DNA of 64,000 nucleotides, taken from Stentor roeselii (taxonomy: Eukaryota; Ciliophora; Heterotrichea; Heterotrichida; Stentoridae). Positions 16,939 through 24,416 of the stretch are shown piece after piece. The stretch is from positions 124,001 to 188,000 of the forward strand of contig RSEH01000004.1 in the NCBI GenBank assembly GCA_006503475.1, read 5' to 3'. The position numbers were made by a program, and so were the translations under genes. Numbering within the stretch: the first letter of the stretch is position 1; the number at the start of each line of letters is the position of its first letter. The notes beneath the pieces are model-generated. The model made no database searches. It was not told the DNA's origin and saw only the letters and a list, made by a program, of their open reading frames with translations.

Positions 16939-18996
16939 ATGTCGTCTCTAAAACGAATCCGTGTGATCGAATCTCACCTAATATCTCGTTTCCCCCCATC
17001 AACAGATGACAGCAGTCTCCGCTCCCACCTTTCGAAATTTTCTAATCTCTCCTCTGAGTTGCTTAGCCGTCATTATTTCGACACCTTCCACTCAGGAATT
17101 CAGTCCATTCGCAAGAAAATCGCTGATTCTAGTCTCTTTACACACGAAGAGGAACTAGTGACAGACCTGAACTTCACCCGTGGACGAGTAATCCAGCAAA
17201 TAAAATATCTTCTGAAAGACTACAACATGAGTTACGCGAAAGATCAAGAAGACCCGTCATTTAAAATGATCCCTGGGTACAGCCTAGCAGAGTACTCACT
17301 AGCCCTGACAACTCGAGTACTAGTCCACCTCTTTTTATACATCGACAGCATCCAAGACCTTGGCACTGAAAAGCACCGAAATTTAATCGACAAAGCCTAT
17401 CGTTTCGAAGACTTCGGGTGCTTTGCAATGACCGAGTTGGGGCACGGTTCCAATGTGAGCGGGGTAGAAACAACAGCGACCTTCGACTTAAAAACCAACA
17501 GTTTTCTTTTTAATTCTCCAAGCAGAACTGCAGCCAAATGGTGGGTGGGTGCTTTGGCCGACACTGCAAACATGGCAGTGGTCTTTGCCCAGATGATTGT
17601 CGAAGGCCAAAATAAAGGCGTTCATGCTTTTCTGATTCCTATTCGAGATCGACTCACTCATGACGTCCTTCCTGGCCTGGTCATCGGCGACTGCGGAAAA
17701 AAGCTGGCAAGTGACGGGATCGACAATGGCTTCATGCTTTTTTTTAACTACTCAGCGCCTTATGATTGTTTGTTGGACAAGTACAGTCAAGTGAAAGAAG
17801 GGAAGTTTAAGTCTGCAATTAAAAACAAGGACAAAAGACTGGCAGTTATGATGGCAGGACTTATTAGAGGAAGGTTCTCAGTGGTTTCAGGAAGTGAAAT
17901 TAATGCTAGGACTTGTCTTACTATTGCTTTGAGATATGCGGTTGTTAGGAAACAGTTTGGAACACCGGAACAGCCATTGATTAATTATCAGGTTCATCAG
18001 CATCGACTTATTCCTGGAGTCGCTTCGACTGTCGCTATGAGGTGCATTGGAAAAGTCTTTCATCGCATGTACCTCGAAATCATTCCTCTTATTAAGACTG
18101 ACCCTGAATGTGATGAGGTTAATGAATTGCATTGTTTACTTAGTGCTGCTAAAGTCTTATGCTCGTCACTTAGTATTAAAATCACTCAGGAATGTAGAAT
18201 GGCTTGTGGTGGACATGGATTTTCAAGCTATTCGGCAATTGGACGGTATAGAGGGTACCAAGACACGCATGCTACTTGGGAAGGCGACAACGCAGTACTA
18301 ATTCAACAAACCGGTAAATTCATCCTAAAAGTCCTCCAAAAGTCATTCAAAGGCCAAAAAGTCGCTCAAAGGACTTTAAATTTCCTAAAACTCGATTTCG
18401 ACGAAGTAAAAACAACTAAATTCGAATTTTCAAAACTCGAAGAAATCGACAGCAATCTCTTACAACACCTTTTCGAATTCAAAGTAAACTACCTAATGCA
18501 CTCATCAGCTTTAAAGCTCCAAGAAAACGCTGGAAAACTTTCAGAAATGTCAGAAGTTTGGAACAATTCCCAAGTATTCCTAATCCAAGACCTAGGTTTC
18601 GCCTACGGCGAGTTAATGATGATAAAAGAGTTCTTCTCTCTCTCAGCTCGAGTATCAAAAGACTGTTCAAAAACCGGTGAAATCCTTCAAAAACTCGCAA
18701 TTTTATTCAGTATCGACACAATAATCACCAATCCCTTAGTCTTCACAGAGCACGCTCTAAGCTCATCTCAAATAAAATTACTAAAAGATTCAATAATCGA
18801 CTTATGCCAAAATCTCGCATCTCCTTCAGTTTGGATTCTCGATTCTCTTTCAGCTCCCGACGAGGTATTCAGAAGTGTCATCGGTTCAAAAGACGGCCAA
18901 GTCTACAACCGACTGATCGAAGCAGTAGAAAAAGAAAAAAAATGTTATGAAAAACCGACTTGGTTAAAAGATTTACGAGAATTAAGAGGAAGTTAA
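16939..18996 (+). CDS. peroxisomal acyl-CoA oxidase
   Basis: 685 residues, the usual acyl-CoA oxidase length. It should catalyse the first, FAD-dependent and H2O2-producing step of peroxisomal fatty-acid beta-oxidation. Family signatures are FAMTELGHGSN (~162-172), SPSRTAAKWWVG, an IPIRD block, VRKQFG, RMACGGHGFSSYS and THATWEGDNAV, followed by the C-terminal oxidase domain. The N-terminus carries RIRVIESHL (residues 6-14), fitting the PTS2 peroxisomal targeting pattern R-[LIV]-x5-[HQ]-L. The C-terminus LRGS is not a good PTS1. The stop codon TAA lies in TTAA at 18993-18996, which is also used for the stop of the convergent PDE gene. Confidence 0.93.
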   Translation: MSSLKRIRVIESHLISRFPPSTDDSSLRSHLSKFSNLSSELLSRHYFDTFHSGIQSIRKKIADSSLFTHEEELVTDLNFTRGRVIQQIKYLLKDYNMSYAKDQEDPSFKMIPGYSLAEYSLALTTRVLVHLFLYIDSIQDLGTEKHRNLIDKAYRFEDFGCFAMTELGHGSNVSGVETTATFDLKTNSFLFNSPSRTAAKWWVGALADTANMAVVFAQMIVEGQNKGVHAFLIPIRDRLTHDVLPGLVIGDCGKKLASDGIDNGFMLFFNYSAPYDCLLDKYSQVKEGKFKSAIKNKDKRLAVMMAGLIRGRFSVVSGSEINARTCLTIALRYAVVRKQFGTPEQPLINYQVHQHRLIPGVASTVAMRCIGKVFHRMYLEIIPLIKTDPECDEVNELHCLLSAAKVLCSSLSIKITQECRMACGGHGFSSYSAIGRYRGYQDTHATWEGDNAVLIQQTGKFILKVLQKSFKGQKVAQRTLNFLKLDFDEVKTTKFEFSKLEEIDSNLLQHLFEFKVNYLMHSSALKLQENAGKLSEMSEVWNNSQVFLIQDLGFAYGELMMIKEFFSLSARVSKDCSKTGEILQKLAILFSIDTIITNPLVFTEHALSSSQIKLLKDSIIDLCQNLASPSVWILDSLSAPDEVFRSVIGSKDGQVYNRLIEAVEKEKKCYEKPTWLKDLRELRGS

Positions 18997-20726
18997 TAGT
19001 TAATCTTTTTTTCAAGCCAACTTTTCCGGTTTTCATTTAATTGGTCTAAGTTCTGTTGAACTTCTGGCAAAATCAAAAGTAATGCGCTGAAAGTCGGCTC
19101 GATGAACAAGTCGATGAAACTCACCTGGGACTTTGGAATAATTACTGTTAGACGGTCGCATAAATGGCTTATTGGAAGACCTTGCTCTCGCTCTTTGTCA
19201 CCTTGAAGGAAAAACTCGCTCATCACTCGCTCGGCCCAGGACTTTGCAAGGCTCCAGGGCCGGGAAGGGTTGCTTACGTCTGCTGTGTGCATCATCATCT
19301 CCATGCATAGACCTCGACTTTCTTCGTCTTCTACTTCGCCTGATGCTGCTTTTGATTTGAACTTACTGATGTCGGAGAAATGACGAGAAAAATCAGTCGC
19401 TAGGACACAGTTTATTATTTTGTTTCGGAGCTTTTTTAGGTTTTCTTTTGAGAAATTTTGGAATATCTTGTGATTTTGCATTAGGGTAAAGGAAGAGGCT
19501 AGGTGATGGTTTTCGAGAACTGACTTGTCGTTGTAACGGATTGCTAAGGGGTCTAATGTGTTTATTAGATACTGATTATTAACTCCAGGATGCTCAAAAT
19601 CGTGAATCGCAGCACTGACAAGGCAGCAAAGCACATCGCTATCTGACAAGGAACATAAAATGCGCGCTTTGCATGAAGTTAACAAATAAAAGTAGGCTTG
19701 AACAACATCTGCTGCGTGAAGATCGTTATGGTAAAGGTTAGTCTTCAGGTAGCCTGATGAAATTTCTTGGATAAAGCTTGTGAAGTTCGAGAGAGGAATT
19801 TCAAGTAATGCAAATAAGTTGAAGTAGGAGAAAAAGTGGATTGTTAAATGCTCCAGAACAGGGATTGTTGATGATTTTTCGAGTTCGAAAATATCGAAAT
19901 CCCAGTTCTGGCTTTTCTCGAGGTTATTGAGACTTGAGTAGTCGAGGGGATGAGAGGCCATTGGATTGGTTCCAATAAGATTTTCACTAACTTCTTCCTC
20001 CACAAGTCCCATTTTCGCGATTTCATTATTTTCCACATTTTCAGTGATAATATTAACTTCATAAATTTTTCGAGATTTGATGATTTCATAGCACCAAATA
20101 AGTTCATTTTTCAGATTTTCATTAAGAAAAACCCAGTCAAAGTTGATGAACTTCTGAAGAACCTTCAAAACAGTCTCACTTGGAGTGGAGACACTAACCG
20201 ACGAGTGAGTCTTCGAAAAGGCTCTTTTTGAGTTAATACTAAGTTCATTAACTTTTCGAACCATTATAAAAAGTCGAAAAATCCTGAGAATCTGAGCAAA
20301 TCTGAAAAAAGAAGATTTTCTTGCTTTAAGAAGGGAAAGGTCGATGACGATGACTAAAAAACAAGTAACGAGAATGAAGATATCGAAGTTATTAGTCCAG
20401 GATCGGAAGTAGTCCTTTTTAATGACAGAGATTTTCAGAAGGATCTCAATACTGAAAATCGTGAGGATAAAGAGCTCAGTTATGTCAAGAGCTTTGTAGT
20501 GTCTCTCAAGTTCTTGCTCAAATGAAATCCGAATCACTACTAAAAACGTGTAAAAGAAAACCAGTCCTATAAACAACGTTTGAGTTGTTTTTTTACGAAG
20601 AAATATCGCGATTCTACCTGAAAGTCCTATGTTTAACTTTTGTTGAGGGACTCTTTGAATTTCATTTGTAGTTATTGTAGTTTGGTCTAAAGCCTGTTTT
20701 CCAAGTTTTACCTTTTTCAATGACAT
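18993..20726 (-). CDS. voltage-sensor-domain/cyclic nucleotide phosphodiesterase fusion
   Basis: 577 residues. N-terminal four-helix membrane domain: S1 ~50-68, S2 ~82-101 with E94, S3 ~113-133 with D115, S4 ~140-160. S4 has basic residues R142, R148, R151 and R157 in a three-residue register, the layout of a voltage sensor. No pore helix follows. After a linker (~165-285) comes a class I PDE catalytic domain: YHNDLHAADV (H333, H337, D340), AAIHDFEHPG (H375, D376, H379), a conserved ENHHLASSF, and MMMHTADVSNPSRPW. All expected metal-binding residues are present, so it should hydrolyse cAMP and/or cGMP. Voltage control is inference from S4. It shares TTAA stops with the acyl-CoA oxidase and is divergent from the CNBD channel at 20932. 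Confidence 0.88.
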   Translation of the reverse strand: MSLKKVKLGKQALDQTTITTNEIQRVPQQKLNIGLSGRIAIFLRKKTTQTLFIGLVFFYTFLVVIRISFEQELERHYKALDITELFILTIFSIEILLKISVIKKDYFRSWTNNFDIFILVTCFLVIVIDLSLLKARKSSFFRFAQILRIFRLFIMVRKVNELSINSKRAFSKTHSSVSVSTPSETVLKVLQKFINFDWVFLNENLKNELIWCYEIIKSRKIYEVNIITENVENNEIAKMGLVEEEVSENLIGTNPMASHPLDYSSLNNLEKSQNWDFDIFELEKSSTIPVLEHLTIHFFSYFNLFALLEIPLSNFTSFIQEISSGYLKTNLYHNDLHAADVVQAYFYLLTSCKARILCSLSDSDVLCCLVSAAIHDFEHPGVNNQYLINTLDPLAIRYNDKSVLENHHLASSFTLMQNHKIFQNFSKENLKKLRNKIINCVLATDFSRHFSDISKFKSKAASGEVEDEESRGLCMEMMMHTADVSNPSRPWSLAKSWAERVMSEFFLQGDKEREQGLPISHLCDRLTVIIPKSQVSFIDLFIEPTFSALLLILPEVQQNLDQLNENRKSWLEKKINY

Positions 20727-20931
20727 TTATTAATGACCGGCAGTTAAATGAAGTCTCAGTGGTTTTATCTTAAAAGTTACTATTCACTTACTAAGATTTT
20801 TTTTAATTTTTAATGAATTTTTTTTGTCAAAGCTCGAAATTTTGAATCTTTTGAAATCAACAAAAAAAATTTTCTTAGACTTAATAAAAATCTTAGTATA
20901 GAAAAACTTAGACTTTCTAACTTTCTAATAA
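20727..20931. promoter_or_regulatory. shared divergent promoter of PDE fusion and CNBD channel
   Basis: A 205-bp interval separates the start codons of the two signalling genes, so both promoters must lie here or inside the frames. It is AT-rich with an A/T-tract core. Both genes have TAATAAATG-type start contexts (ATTAATAAATG on the minus strand, CTAATAAATG on the plus). No specific factor site can be named. Confidence 0.4.
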
Positions 20932-22941
20932 ATGAGCGACATCAGCCAATCTCGAGATTTTAAAGAAGATGATGAAGAAAAGTCCCTTCACTGGGAAAAG
21001 GTTGCAAAGGAACTATCCGCAGTCGAGCCCCTAACAAGAAACCTTCCAGAAAATAAAGAAGACAAGTTCTTAATCTACCCAGACGACACTTTTATAGACT
21101 GGTGGAACCTTCTGGTAATTTTACTGCTTCTCTACACAGCGACAGTCATTCCATATAGAATGATTCTGGAAGAGCCTGATGACTTAGGCTTCGTTATTTG
21201 GGACACTATTGTTGACGGATTATTCTTCATCGATATCATCATCAACTCTCTTTCATGTCACTATGATGAAGACGGCAACTTGGTGAAAAGTCGAAAGCTT
21301 ATCATGAAAAAATATGCAATGAGTTGGCTCTTCATTGATTTAGCTTCTTGCATTCCTTTGCAACTCATTCTGCAGACTGAGAAGAATTATTCAAAAGTCA
21401 TCAGAATTAGCAGACTTCCCAGACTTTATAGACTTATCAAAATGATTAAACTTCTTAGAGTCACTAAAATGCTGAAGTCACGGTCGCAGGTGTTGAAGTA
21501 TATTGGAGAGTTTTTGAAAGTTGATGCGGGAATTGAAAAATTGATCTGGTTTTTGATTACTTTTATGCTGCTTATTCATATTTTAGCTTGTCTTTGGATC
21601 TTTTTAGGGGTTTTTTACAAGTATGAACAATATGATAATTGGGTTATGAGCTCCTCACTTCTAGACGCAACATATTCAGAGCTTTACATAACAGGTCTCT
21701 ACTGGTGCGTGACAACATTAGCAACAGTAGGTTACGGCGACATCCACCCTTACAACACAGCAGAGCGTTTATTCACAACAGTAGTGATGGTGATCGGTAT
21801 CTTTTTATACTCTTACATCATCGGTTCCTTAACAAACATGATCTCAAACGCAGACAGTAAAAGAGCCAAGTTGACTAAAAAGTTAGAAATTCTTGACGAG
21901 ATGACTCAAGAATACGGGTTTAATCAAGAGTTTTACCGAAAACTAGTCAATGCTCTTGAAAGTCAACATCTAAACAACAAGCAAGAATTAAATGACCTCG
22001 TTGAAGACATTCCAACTCACCTAAAGACTCAGTTGATGATTTTAATACATCAAAATATGCTCACTGGGAATAAGTTCTTTGTTAGTAAACCACCTTATTT
22101 TGTTGCTTTTGTTGCACCTTTGTTGAGAAGTATGAAATTTGAGGACCAGGAGTATATTTATAAGGAAGAAGACTATGCAAAAGAAATGTATTTTATTGCT
22201 GATGGTGAACTTGATATGTTTTTTACGGCACCTACTACTCATGTCGAGGTACCTTTTAATCAACTGCCTTGTAGTTATTATTTTGGAGAGACGGATATCT
22301 TGTTTTCGGAGGGAAAACATCGGGAATTTGGAGTTAAAACGACTTCGAAGTGCCATTTGCTTTTGCTTGACCATCTAGACTTCGAAAATCTCCTAAAAAA
22401 ATTCGAAGAAGAAAGTCTCGAAATAATGACCCTTGCTCACGAAAGAAACAAACGTCTTCTAGAAAAAAAAGACTTAGCACTTCAAGCCTACGAGCAGCAG
22501 TTAGACTACAAAAAGTTAAAAAGCATGCCATCTGAAAAAATGCCAGAACTTCTAAAACTCTCCGACGTGATAGGCCAGAGCCGAAGTAACTCTCTAATAA
22601 GCGACAACGCCGAAGAAAACGATTTAAAATTCCTATCAACAGGAGAAGAGCCAGTTTTATTAAACAATCACAGCGCTTGTGAAGATCATTCAAATAAAAA
22701 AGTCGAAGACGAAAAAATCATCAACAGTAAAAATCTTTACAAAGCAGTCATCGAGGACAAGCTTGTAAAAGAAGAAGACAATTTAAAAGTCGCGAAAAAA
22801 AAAATCTCGAACATTGAAAAAGACGTTCAAGAATGCATGAGGATCTTAAAAAACATCACAGATTTCTTCGCTGATATAAATGACGACATGAGTTCCTTAA
22901 AAGTCTCAGCGAATTATAACAGGTTAAAAAGTAGTAATTAA
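20932..22941 (+). CDS. cyclic nucleotide-binding-domain K+ channel (EAG/HCN/CNG superfamily)
   Basis: 669 residues. It has six-transmembrane topology with S1 at ~62-80 and S4 rich in Arg/Lys (RISRLPRLYRLIKMIKLLR). The pore is LYWCVTTLATVGYGDIHP with the K+ selectivity filter TVGYGD, followed by S6 and a C-linker. A CNBD spans ~385-500 (FIADGELDMFF ... YYFGETDIL ... LLLLDHLDFENLL). The usual RxA[ST] phosphate-binding motif is replaced by HREFG: the Arg is kept but the next residues are not. Direct ligand gating is therefore uncertain. A charged coiled-coil tail follows. It is divergent from the voltage-sensor PDE, suggesting joint control. Codon composition resets abruptly near 21650 and 22378. 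Confidence 0.93.
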   Translation: MSDISQSRDFKEDDEEKSLHWEKVAKELSAVEPLTRNLPENKEDKFLIYPDDTFIDWWNLLVILLLLYTATVIPYRMILEEPDDLGFVIWDTIVDGLFFIDIIINSLSCHYDEDGNLVKSRKLIMKKYAMSWLFIDLASCIPLQLILQTEKNYSKVIRISRLPRLYRLIKMIKLLRVTKMLKSRSQVLKYIGEFLKVDAGIEKLIWFLITFMLLIHILACLWIFLGVFYKYEQYDNWVMSSSLLDATYSELYITGLYWCVTTLATVGYGDIHPYNTAERLFTTVVMVIGIFLYSYIIGSLTNMISNADSKRAKLTKKLEILDEMTQEYGFNQEFYRKLVNALESQHLNNKQELNDLVEDIPTHLKTQLMILIHQNMLTGNKFFVSKPPYFVAFVAPLLRSMKFEDQEYIYKEEDYAKEMYFIADGELDMFFTAPTTHVEVPFNQLPCSYYFGETDILFSEGKHREFGVKTTSKCHLLLLDHLDFENLLKKFEEESLEIMTLAHERNKRLLEKKDLALQAYEQQLDYKKLKSMPSEKMPELLKLSDVIGQSRSNSLISDNAEENDLKFLSTGEEPVLLNNHSACEDHSNKKVEDEKIINSKNLYKAVIEDKLVKEEDNLKVAKKKISNIEKDVQECMRILKNITDFFADINDDMSSLKVSANYNRLKSSN

Positions 22942-22948
22942 ATAAAAG

Positions 22949-23020
22949 GTCAGAAGCCAGGGTTCGAACCTGGGTTAATCGTTGTGAAACTCGATAGCCT
23001 GTCCGCTCGGCCACTTCTGA
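22949..23020 (-). tRNA. tRNA-like gene with aberrant anticodon arm, identity uncertain
   Basis: Reading leftwards from 23020, the 7-bp acceptor stem TCAGAAG/CTTCTGA is perfect. Box A TGGCCGAGCGG and box B GGTTCGAACCC match Pol III consensus. The T-arm has a CCAGG/CCTGG stem and a 7-nt loop. TTTT at 22944-22947 can terminate transcription. The D-arm resembles Leu/Ser types, yet there is no long variable arm. The anticodon arm pairs only as ATCG/CGAT, leaving a 10-nt loop AGTTTCACAA. Read as a tRNA-Glu-like loop (TTTCAC) the anticodon would be UUC; UCA is the alternative. The discriminator base is C. It lies 8 bp from the channel stop and 16 bp from the receptor gene. It may be a divergent tRNA or a tRNA pseudogene. 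Confidence 0.7.
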
Positions 23021-23036
23021 TAAAACTATCTAAATT

Positions 23037-24416
23037 TCAAATATTTTCTATTCTAAACTCCAGTTCTTTCAACAATTCCACAAACTTCTGAGAGATTATT
23101 TTCGAGTCATCTAAATTTTCCTTAAGTTCTTTGAATTTCAAATTAAAGTTGTTTTTCGAGCTTCCTAAAAGACACTCAAATTTTATCATCATGTTCATGA
23201 ATTCAAGGATTTCCTTCTCAGCTTCAGCTCCTATCTTCGAGTTGTCTTTCACAACCATTTTTCCCTTAAACAATTTTTTTCTAAAGAGAATAAAAAAAGG
23301 AACAGTAAAAATCAGCACAGTTGCCGTATAAGCAAAACAAGAAGCTACAAGTTCGACAGGTAATGGAAAGTCAAGCCCATCATTGCACTTTTTAGAAGAT
23401 GTTAACAATAGATGCTTATAAAGCACTTTTTTTACCAGTTGTTGGTCAAGCAAGTCATGAAGACTTGCTTGAAAAGTGTTCATCAAAGTTTGATTAGAAG
23501 TAGGTCCTAAATGAGCGAAGGCCAAATACGAGTCAACAAAAATCGACCCGATAAGTGTCAGTTCACAGTACTCAGAGTTAAGCAGCAAGGCCTCTGAATA
23601 AGGAAAAGCTCCAGCTGAAAGCCGCTCGTCAAGTATATCAGCGACTATCTCCTTATAAGGCTTATTCGTTGAAGGCGAATAAATCCGTGAATTAATTCCA
23701 AGAGTTTCAAGAGACGATGAAAATTCCGAGTAAGTTCCAACAAGTCTATCTTCTAAAGACTGAAAATGGTCAACTTCCACATAACGTGAAAATTTCCCGA
23801 TTCTTGATGCGAGGGTTGAAATGTAACTCGCTGATGTCATGAAAATTAGGAACCAGTAGGATAAGATTATCAATCTTGTTGATATTTTTCTTGTTGGCTC
23901 GCGACGCAAACTGAAAAAACCTAAAAAAACTTGCCAAAAACTGGAGAGGATTCCTTTTTTATAAGACATCTCGATTTCTCCTTCTCGACTTCTCTCGAAG
24001 AACCAGAAAATGTGACTGATGATTAATGGAAGTATTAGTAAAGCAATCCAGAGTTTCCATTCAATCGGCTCGTAAATTAGGAAAAATAAGGACTTTTGAT
24101 GGTTTTTTACTAATAAAACCAAACCGTTGTTTAGGAAAGGAACGGAAAAAGAACCTGATTCGTAGTACTTTGGAATCATTGGTAAAAAAGTTGCATCGAC
24201 TTCTTTTTTCTTTAAAGCTTCATAGGCAGTGTCGTAGTTTTCATAGCAAATGTAATTAATTTCTTCGAGTTTCACTCCGGAGTCCTCGATAAGCATTCCG
24301 ATTAGCTCTGGAACGAAACCTGAGGAGTTTTTTGTTGAACAGTAGCTTATTGGGGCTTTATTTACAAGTCCGATATTAGCACTGAAGGATGACTGAAAAA
24401 TGAGAAAAAAAAACAT
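23037..24416 (-). CDS. ionotropic glutamate receptor-like ion channel subunit
   Basis: 459 residues. Signal peptide ~1-14; S1 ligand-binding half ~15-105 (FVPELIGMLIEDSG, and a DATFLPMIP block typical of periplasmic-binding folds). M1 is at ~118-137, a re-entrant pore loop at ~150-172, and M3 at ~183-208 with SYISTLASR in place of the animal SYTANLAAF gate. The S2 half spans ~210-345, M4 ~362-385, and a charged cytoplasmic coiled tail follows. There is no large amino-terminal domain, so it resembles minimal prokaryotic GluR0-like receptors. The ligand cannot be assigned. It sits between a tRNA-like gene and a p24 gene on the same strand. The fold call is good; glutamate binding is not established. 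Confidence 0.82.
   Translation of the reverse strand: MFFFLIFQSSFSANIGLVNKAPISYCSTKNSSGFVPELIGMLIEDSGVKLEEINYICYENYDTAYEALKKKEVDATFLPMIPKYYESGSFSVPFLNNGLVLLVKNHQKSLFFLIYEPIEWKLWIALLILPLIISHIFWFFERSREGEIEMSYKKGILSSFWQVFLGFFSLRREPTRKISTRLIILSYWFLIFMTSASYISTLASRIGKFSRYVEVDHFQSLEDRLVGTYSEFSSSLETLGINSRIYSPSTNKPYKEIVADILDERLSAGAFPYSEALLLNSEYCELTLIGSIFVDSYLAFAHLGPTSNQTLMNTFQASLHDLLDQQLVKKVLYKHLLLTSSKKCNDGLDFPLPVELVASCFAYTATVLIFTVPFFILFRKKLFKGKMVVKDNSKIGAEAEKEILEFMNMMIKFECLLGSSKNNFNLKFKELKENLDDSKIISQKFVELLKELEFRIENI

Follow-up and report, generated by a model that had tools for sequence, protein, structure and literature searches.

Does a single ciliate protein link membrane potential to the removal of cyclic nucleotides? 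The question is raised by a gene in a 64,000-nucleotide stretch of Stentor roeselii DNA (contig RSEH01000004.1, positions 124,001 to 188,000; this whole stretch is called the window here, and its numbering is used for the gene coordinates), for which a preliminary description had claimed a fusion of a voltage-sensor domain (VSD) with a cyclic-nucleotide phosphodiesterase (PDE), encoded next to a divergent K+ channel with a cyclic-nucleotide-binding domain (CNBD). The VSD-PDE gene is composed as follows:

18993..20726, minus strand: VSD-PDE gene, 577 amino acids, single open reading frame (ORF; translation and Pfam)
20238..20585, minus strand: residues 48-163, S1-S4 domain of the voltage-sensor type (matching Ion_trans at profile positions 4-116 of 241, pore half lacking; domain profile and model)
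20208..20312, minus strand: S4 helix and its continuation, residues 139-173 (structure model; register R142, Q145, R148, R151, I154, R157)
19944..20207, minus strand: linker, residues 174-261 (predicted helices 182-194 and 203-217; 220-261 of low confidence)
19038..19733, minus strand: class I PDE catalytic core, residues 332-563 (PDEase_I 1-238 of 238)

One protein joins an S1-S4 voltage-sensor-type domain to a complete class I PDE. Its ORF contains no in-frame stop, is preceded in frame by TAA TAA before the ATG and ends with a TAA. Pfam analysis at E<=1 led to two families only, Ion_trans with 42.3 bits (cut-off 25) and PDEase_I over the full profile length with an E-value of 2.3e-83, and detected neither a PTEN-type phosphatase domain nor a Guanylate_cyc match nor the pore half of Ion_trans. 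The lack of a pore noted in the preliminary description is borne out by the Ion_trans match, which ends with the S1-S4 half at profile position 116, and the complete class I PDE was likewise recovered, with the two expected motifs HNxxHxxDV and HDxxHPG present as HNDLHAADV and HDFEHPG. H333, H337, H375, D376, D483 and Q534, presumably the metal-binding and catalytic residues as in PDE4, are all kept, and hydrolysis of cyclic AMP (cAMP) or cyclic GMP (cGMP) is predicted for this enzyme. An assembly or ORF artefact was considered and rejected, as the identical two-domain order was found on four other contigs.

A search of the genome (44.4 Mb, 522 contigs) revealed PDEase_I at 56 places, for 41 of which protein models were obtained (L030 is incomplete, and a guessed intron underlies L036, L041, L042 and the start of L045). 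The PDE ORFs reach full length with standard stops, and in eight of the 41 models one in-frame stop lies within a 15-nt GT...AG stretch that was read as a putative intron; for Stentor coeruleus, passages of a published report give the standard code and introns of 15-16 nt (PMC9505925), and both features would fit a heterotrich of the Stentor type. Ion_trans exceeded the Pfam cut-off in five of the 41 proteins, namely the window protein and the paralogues L002, L003, L044 and L045, each time with the S1-S4 half, and gave no match at E<=0.1 in the other 36 scanned. When the whole genome was searched with residues 1-249 of the window protein (E<=0.1), only these five and L004 were retrieved besides ORFs of four-domain-channel size. 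As this search also reached the 15 PDE places for which no model exists, the five VSD-PDEs, a lower bound, may come near the actual total. L044 (L044:36-2936(+), 967 amino acids) and L045 (contig C48, minus strand, about 918 amino acids) are larger. In front of the VSD they have roughly 300-330 additional N-terminal residues, which comprise further predicted transmembrane helices and a stretch with cysteines; in the extension of L044, no Pfam family exceeded the cut-off. The search for relatives in prokaryotes gave one match only (L052), spanning 51 PDE residues, and that in viral contigs none. GAF domains were found in 4 of 31 other PDE proteins, so that the genome also encodes GAF-type PDEs, and Guanylate_cyc gave 77 matches, often two per ORF of about 2000 amino acids.

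Is the membrane domain a voltage sensor like those that open the ion channels of nerve and muscle? A profile of the VSD built from the five members retrieved the sensors of CaV/NaV channels, which were closest, and the VSD of Ci-VSP. A full-length structure model was built from an alignment without channel rows; the structure search with the whole model returned rows spanning residues 256-577 only, which are silent on the VSD, and therefore a second model of the VSD alone was made. Structure prediction against voltage-sensor folds, which the preliminary description had proposed as a check, came out in favour of a voltage-sensor fold, since the model of the isolated domain matched VSD proteins including Ci-VSP and SLC9C1. 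The charged residues named in that description (R142, R148, R151 and R157 in S4, E94 and D115 in S2/S3) are all present at these positions, and F91, E94, N112, D115, R148, R151 and R157 are invariant in the five sequences. We take F91, E94 and D115 to be the equivalents of Shaker F290, E293 and D316, that is the S2 aromatic cap, the S2 Glu and the S3 Asp of the charge-transfer centre. Along the S4 register 142-145-148-151-154-157, the window protein reads R-Q-R-R-I-R, L002 and L003 read K-K-R-R-L-R, and L044 and L045 read A-R-R-R-I-R. Comparison of L002 with L003 led to amino acid identities of 0.74 for the VSD, 0.71 for the PDE, 0.60 for the linker and 0.44 for the N-terminus, with nonsynonymous divergence (dN) of 0.19, 0.21, 0.28 and 0.58 respectively (synonymous divergence was not computable); by these estimates, the VSD is constrained as tightly as the enzyme between these close paralogues. 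The fusion is thus backed by profile, model, conservation and recurrence in five of the 41 PDE proteins scanned. The VSD of the window protein is probably a working sensor, as judged from sequence and model, and we infer that its S4 would move in a voltage-dependent manner.

We consider it reasonably probable that this sensor, whose S4 would be joined by a short linker of helices to a class I PDE in the cytosol, couples voltage to hydrolysis. Four helices would place both termini on the same side of the membrane, presumably the cytosolic one, and S4, helical linker and PDE would follow each other in the same order as in Ci-VSP. Voltage would move S4 and thereby change the PDE rate; increased hydrolysis upon depolarisation may be the likelier direction, which is a guess, and would counteract the cAMP production upon hyperpolarisation that is reported for ciliates whose adenylyl cyclase is fused to a K+ channel. 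That cAMP would be the substrate is also a guess, made because of the PDE4/7-like match.

Several observations call for caution. Two of the six S4 register positions are uncharged in the window protein (Q145 and I154). Shuffling of the S4 stretch reached a register of four charges in 1636 of 20000 trials, and shuffling of residues 41-200 reached the best 16-mer score in 180 of 5000 trials. The arginine register was consequently rejected as stand-alone proof, as the shuffles give it no significance; at the sequence level, it is the homology to VSD families and the conservation of identical residues in four paralogues that exceed chance. In addition, linker identity between the window protein and L002 or L003 amounts to just 19-23%, and on this comparison the coupling idea is weakest at the linker, which is poorly conserved. 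The same linker would suit an enzyme without voltage control, in which the four helices are a former voltage sensor that now does no more than anchor the protein in the membrane or mediate dimerisation. Anchoring is common among the PDEs of this genome, many of which have predicted transmembrane helices but no Ion_trans match (for L005 and L006 no transmembrane helix is predicted). Moreover, L004 carries I91, K94, E115 and P151 while retaining R142, R148 and K157, and L008 shows, by eye, hydrophobic stretches without the S4 and S2/S3 charges; both are without an Ion_trans match, yet keep hydrophobic stretches and PDE. These two may be regarded as relatives with a decayed sensor, in which the charge set appears to be lost partly (L004) or wholly (L008). 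As they show, however, a mere anchor would need no charge-transfer residues, whereas these are kept in five genes despite an overall identity of the paralogues to the window protein of 27-44%, and the VSD is as well conserved as the enzyme between L002 and L003. An anchor or dimerisation module appears rather unlikely to us. Very improbable, in our estimate, is a VSD that is itself a conductance (a proton or omega current) or senses another cue, with the PDE setting the local messenger environment; VSD-only proteins such as Hv1 do conduct, according to sections of a review (PMC10651576).

A tree of the PDE domains was calculated from 41 of the 56 PDEs, midpoint-rooted for drawing and with loose domain limits in several rows. 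A supported branch (98/95) sets the window protein, L002, L003, L004 and L008 apart from the other PDEs, L005 and L006 come next (96/85), and L044 and L045 lie within the same larger group, with the caveats that L044 and L043 have long branches and that the pairing of L044 with L045 is weak (87/53). A group of the window protein, L002, L003, L044, L045 and L004 needs three label changes on this tree, of which the supported (starred) branches force at least two, and a single label change was obtained in 0% of 200 bootstrap trees (L008 being outside the labelled group). The VSD-PDEs may have arisen by one gain with subsequent losses or by two gains.

The preferred reading, a voltage-coupled PDE, concerns one protein. 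The preliminary description had gone further and, because of the gene adjacency, proposed the neighbouring CNBD channel as effector in a circuit from voltage via cyclic nucleotides to K+. The features concerned are:

20727..20931, without strand: shared 5' intergenic region, 205 bp, 22% GC (sequence)
20932..22941, plus strand: CNBD K+ channel gene, 669 amino acids (Ion_trans, Ion_trans_2 and cNMP_binding in Pfam)
21730..21738, plus strand: GYG selectivity filter, residues 267-269 of the channel (sequence)
22135..22401, plus strand: CNBD, residues 402-490 of the channel (Pfam; FGE and a subsequent Arg retained)

Domains, filter and distance of the divergent channel were confirmed. It shows six transmembrane helices, GYG and cNMP_binding, and among solved structures it is most closely related to a LliK-like bacterial channel (5v4s, which we take to be LliK), to HCN and to plant AKT channels. 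In the circuit, both genes would be co-expressed and the channel would read the substrate pool of the PDE. Both genes are real and have the AT-rich 5' region in common, the CNBD of the channel retains FGE and an Arg, and a second PDE/CNBD channel pair was found on contig C54 (L051:500-4634), where 28 bp separate the end of a PDE lacking an Ion_trans match from a 729-amino-acid CNBD K+ channel that follows it in tandem. For Euplotes, parts of a published study (PMC8670190) describe PDEase_I and Ion_trans as invariably next to each other among its four subgroups, which may reflect a gene pair or else a fused gene like the present one that was annotated as two. Nevertheless, the claim of an effector fared poorly. 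About 1.4-1.5 kb of flanking DNA on both sides of L002 and of L003 contains no channel: L002 is flanked 5' by a protein kinase with EF-hands and 3' by a VWA protein, L003 is flanked 5' by ribosomal protein S11 and 3' by an ORF that has no Pfam match. A conserved VSD-PDE/CNBD gene pair was hence rejected at these two closest paralogues, and the pair on C54 differs in orientation and PDE type. At least 66 places in the genome match the CNBD channel, 60 of them via the CNBD. Neighbour pairs were sought by eye among the matches, with 150 of 344 and 66 of 202 candidates scored in two of the match sets, and with 66-150 channels and 18000-25000 genes assumed, the Poisson expectation for pairs among the 56 PDEs is 0.30-0.93. 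Finding two (P(>=2) 0.036-0.24) is not clearly above chance, and chance adjacency is plausible. Co-expression with a channel that reads the PDE's substrate pool is thus improbable in our view, and we would give equally little credence to the wider picture of a ciliate family of voltage-gated cyclic-nucleotide PDEs, some with an extra N-terminal membrane region, that would erase cAMP/cGMP according to potential, its window member forming a loop with the CNBD K+ channel of the same 205-bp region, which in turn would set the potential.

Directly behind the channel gene, a tRNA gene with an unassigned four-base anticodon (ttca) was detected at 22948-23020(-) (Rfam, 37.8 bits, and ARAGORN), followed by a 459-amino-acid ORF for a ligand-gated ion channel (Lig_chan in Pfam) at 23037-24416(-).

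No description of a VSD/PDE fusion was found in a full-text literature search, the scope of which excluded most subscription papers and the domain-architecture databases, and phrases such as 'voltage-sensing phosphodiesterase' did not occur in the texts searched; the architecture may be listed without comment in such databases. A 2023 review of VSDs names channels, sNHE, protozoan adenylyl cyclases, Ci-VSP and Hv1, and the word 'phosphodiesterase' is absent from its main text (PMC10651576). If the coupling holds, a single protein would link membrane potential to messenger decay in an excitable single cell and might serve as the starting point for a genetically encoded tool that converts voltage into a cAMP signal, with L004 and L008, in which the charge set is partly or wholly lost, as ready natural controls.

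Among known systems, Ci-VSP and TPTE have, like the window protein, an S1-S4 sensor without a pore that precedes a soluble enzyme, and the VSD profile and model match accordingly; their enzyme, however, is a PTEN-type lipid phosphatase instead of a class I cyclic-nucleotide PDE. Rhodopsin phosphodiesterase (Rh-PDE) is also a membrane sensor fused to a PDE, in which the sensor is a rhodopsin and not a VSD. The neighbouring channel resembles channels of the LliK, HCN and AKT types in its membrane part, CNBD match and GYG filter, but belongs to a large family with at least 66 matching places in this genome. SLC9C1 (sNHE), matched by the VSD model, uses a VSD outside a channel as well, but is a Na+/H+ exchanger according to sections of the review (PMC10651576) and carries no PDE. 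Apicomplexan membrane PDEs are alveolate PDEs with up to six predicted transmembrane helices, for which no voltage sensor is mentioned in the relevant passages (PMC5746546). The adenylyl cyclase/K+ channel fusions of Paramecium, Tetrahymena and Plasmodium (ACalpha; Weber 2004 as cited in passages of PMC10651576 and PMC5746546) likewise combine a voltage-channel-like membrane part with a cyclic-nucleotide enzyme in ciliates and apicomplexans, but these have a K+ pore and make cAMP, whereas the window protein lacks the pore half and is expected to degrade cAMP/cGMP. If true, a voltage-coupled PDE would add to the lipid phosphatase VSP and these alveolate channel-cyclases a further kind of voltage-controlled enzyme, on the side of cyclic-nucleotide removal.

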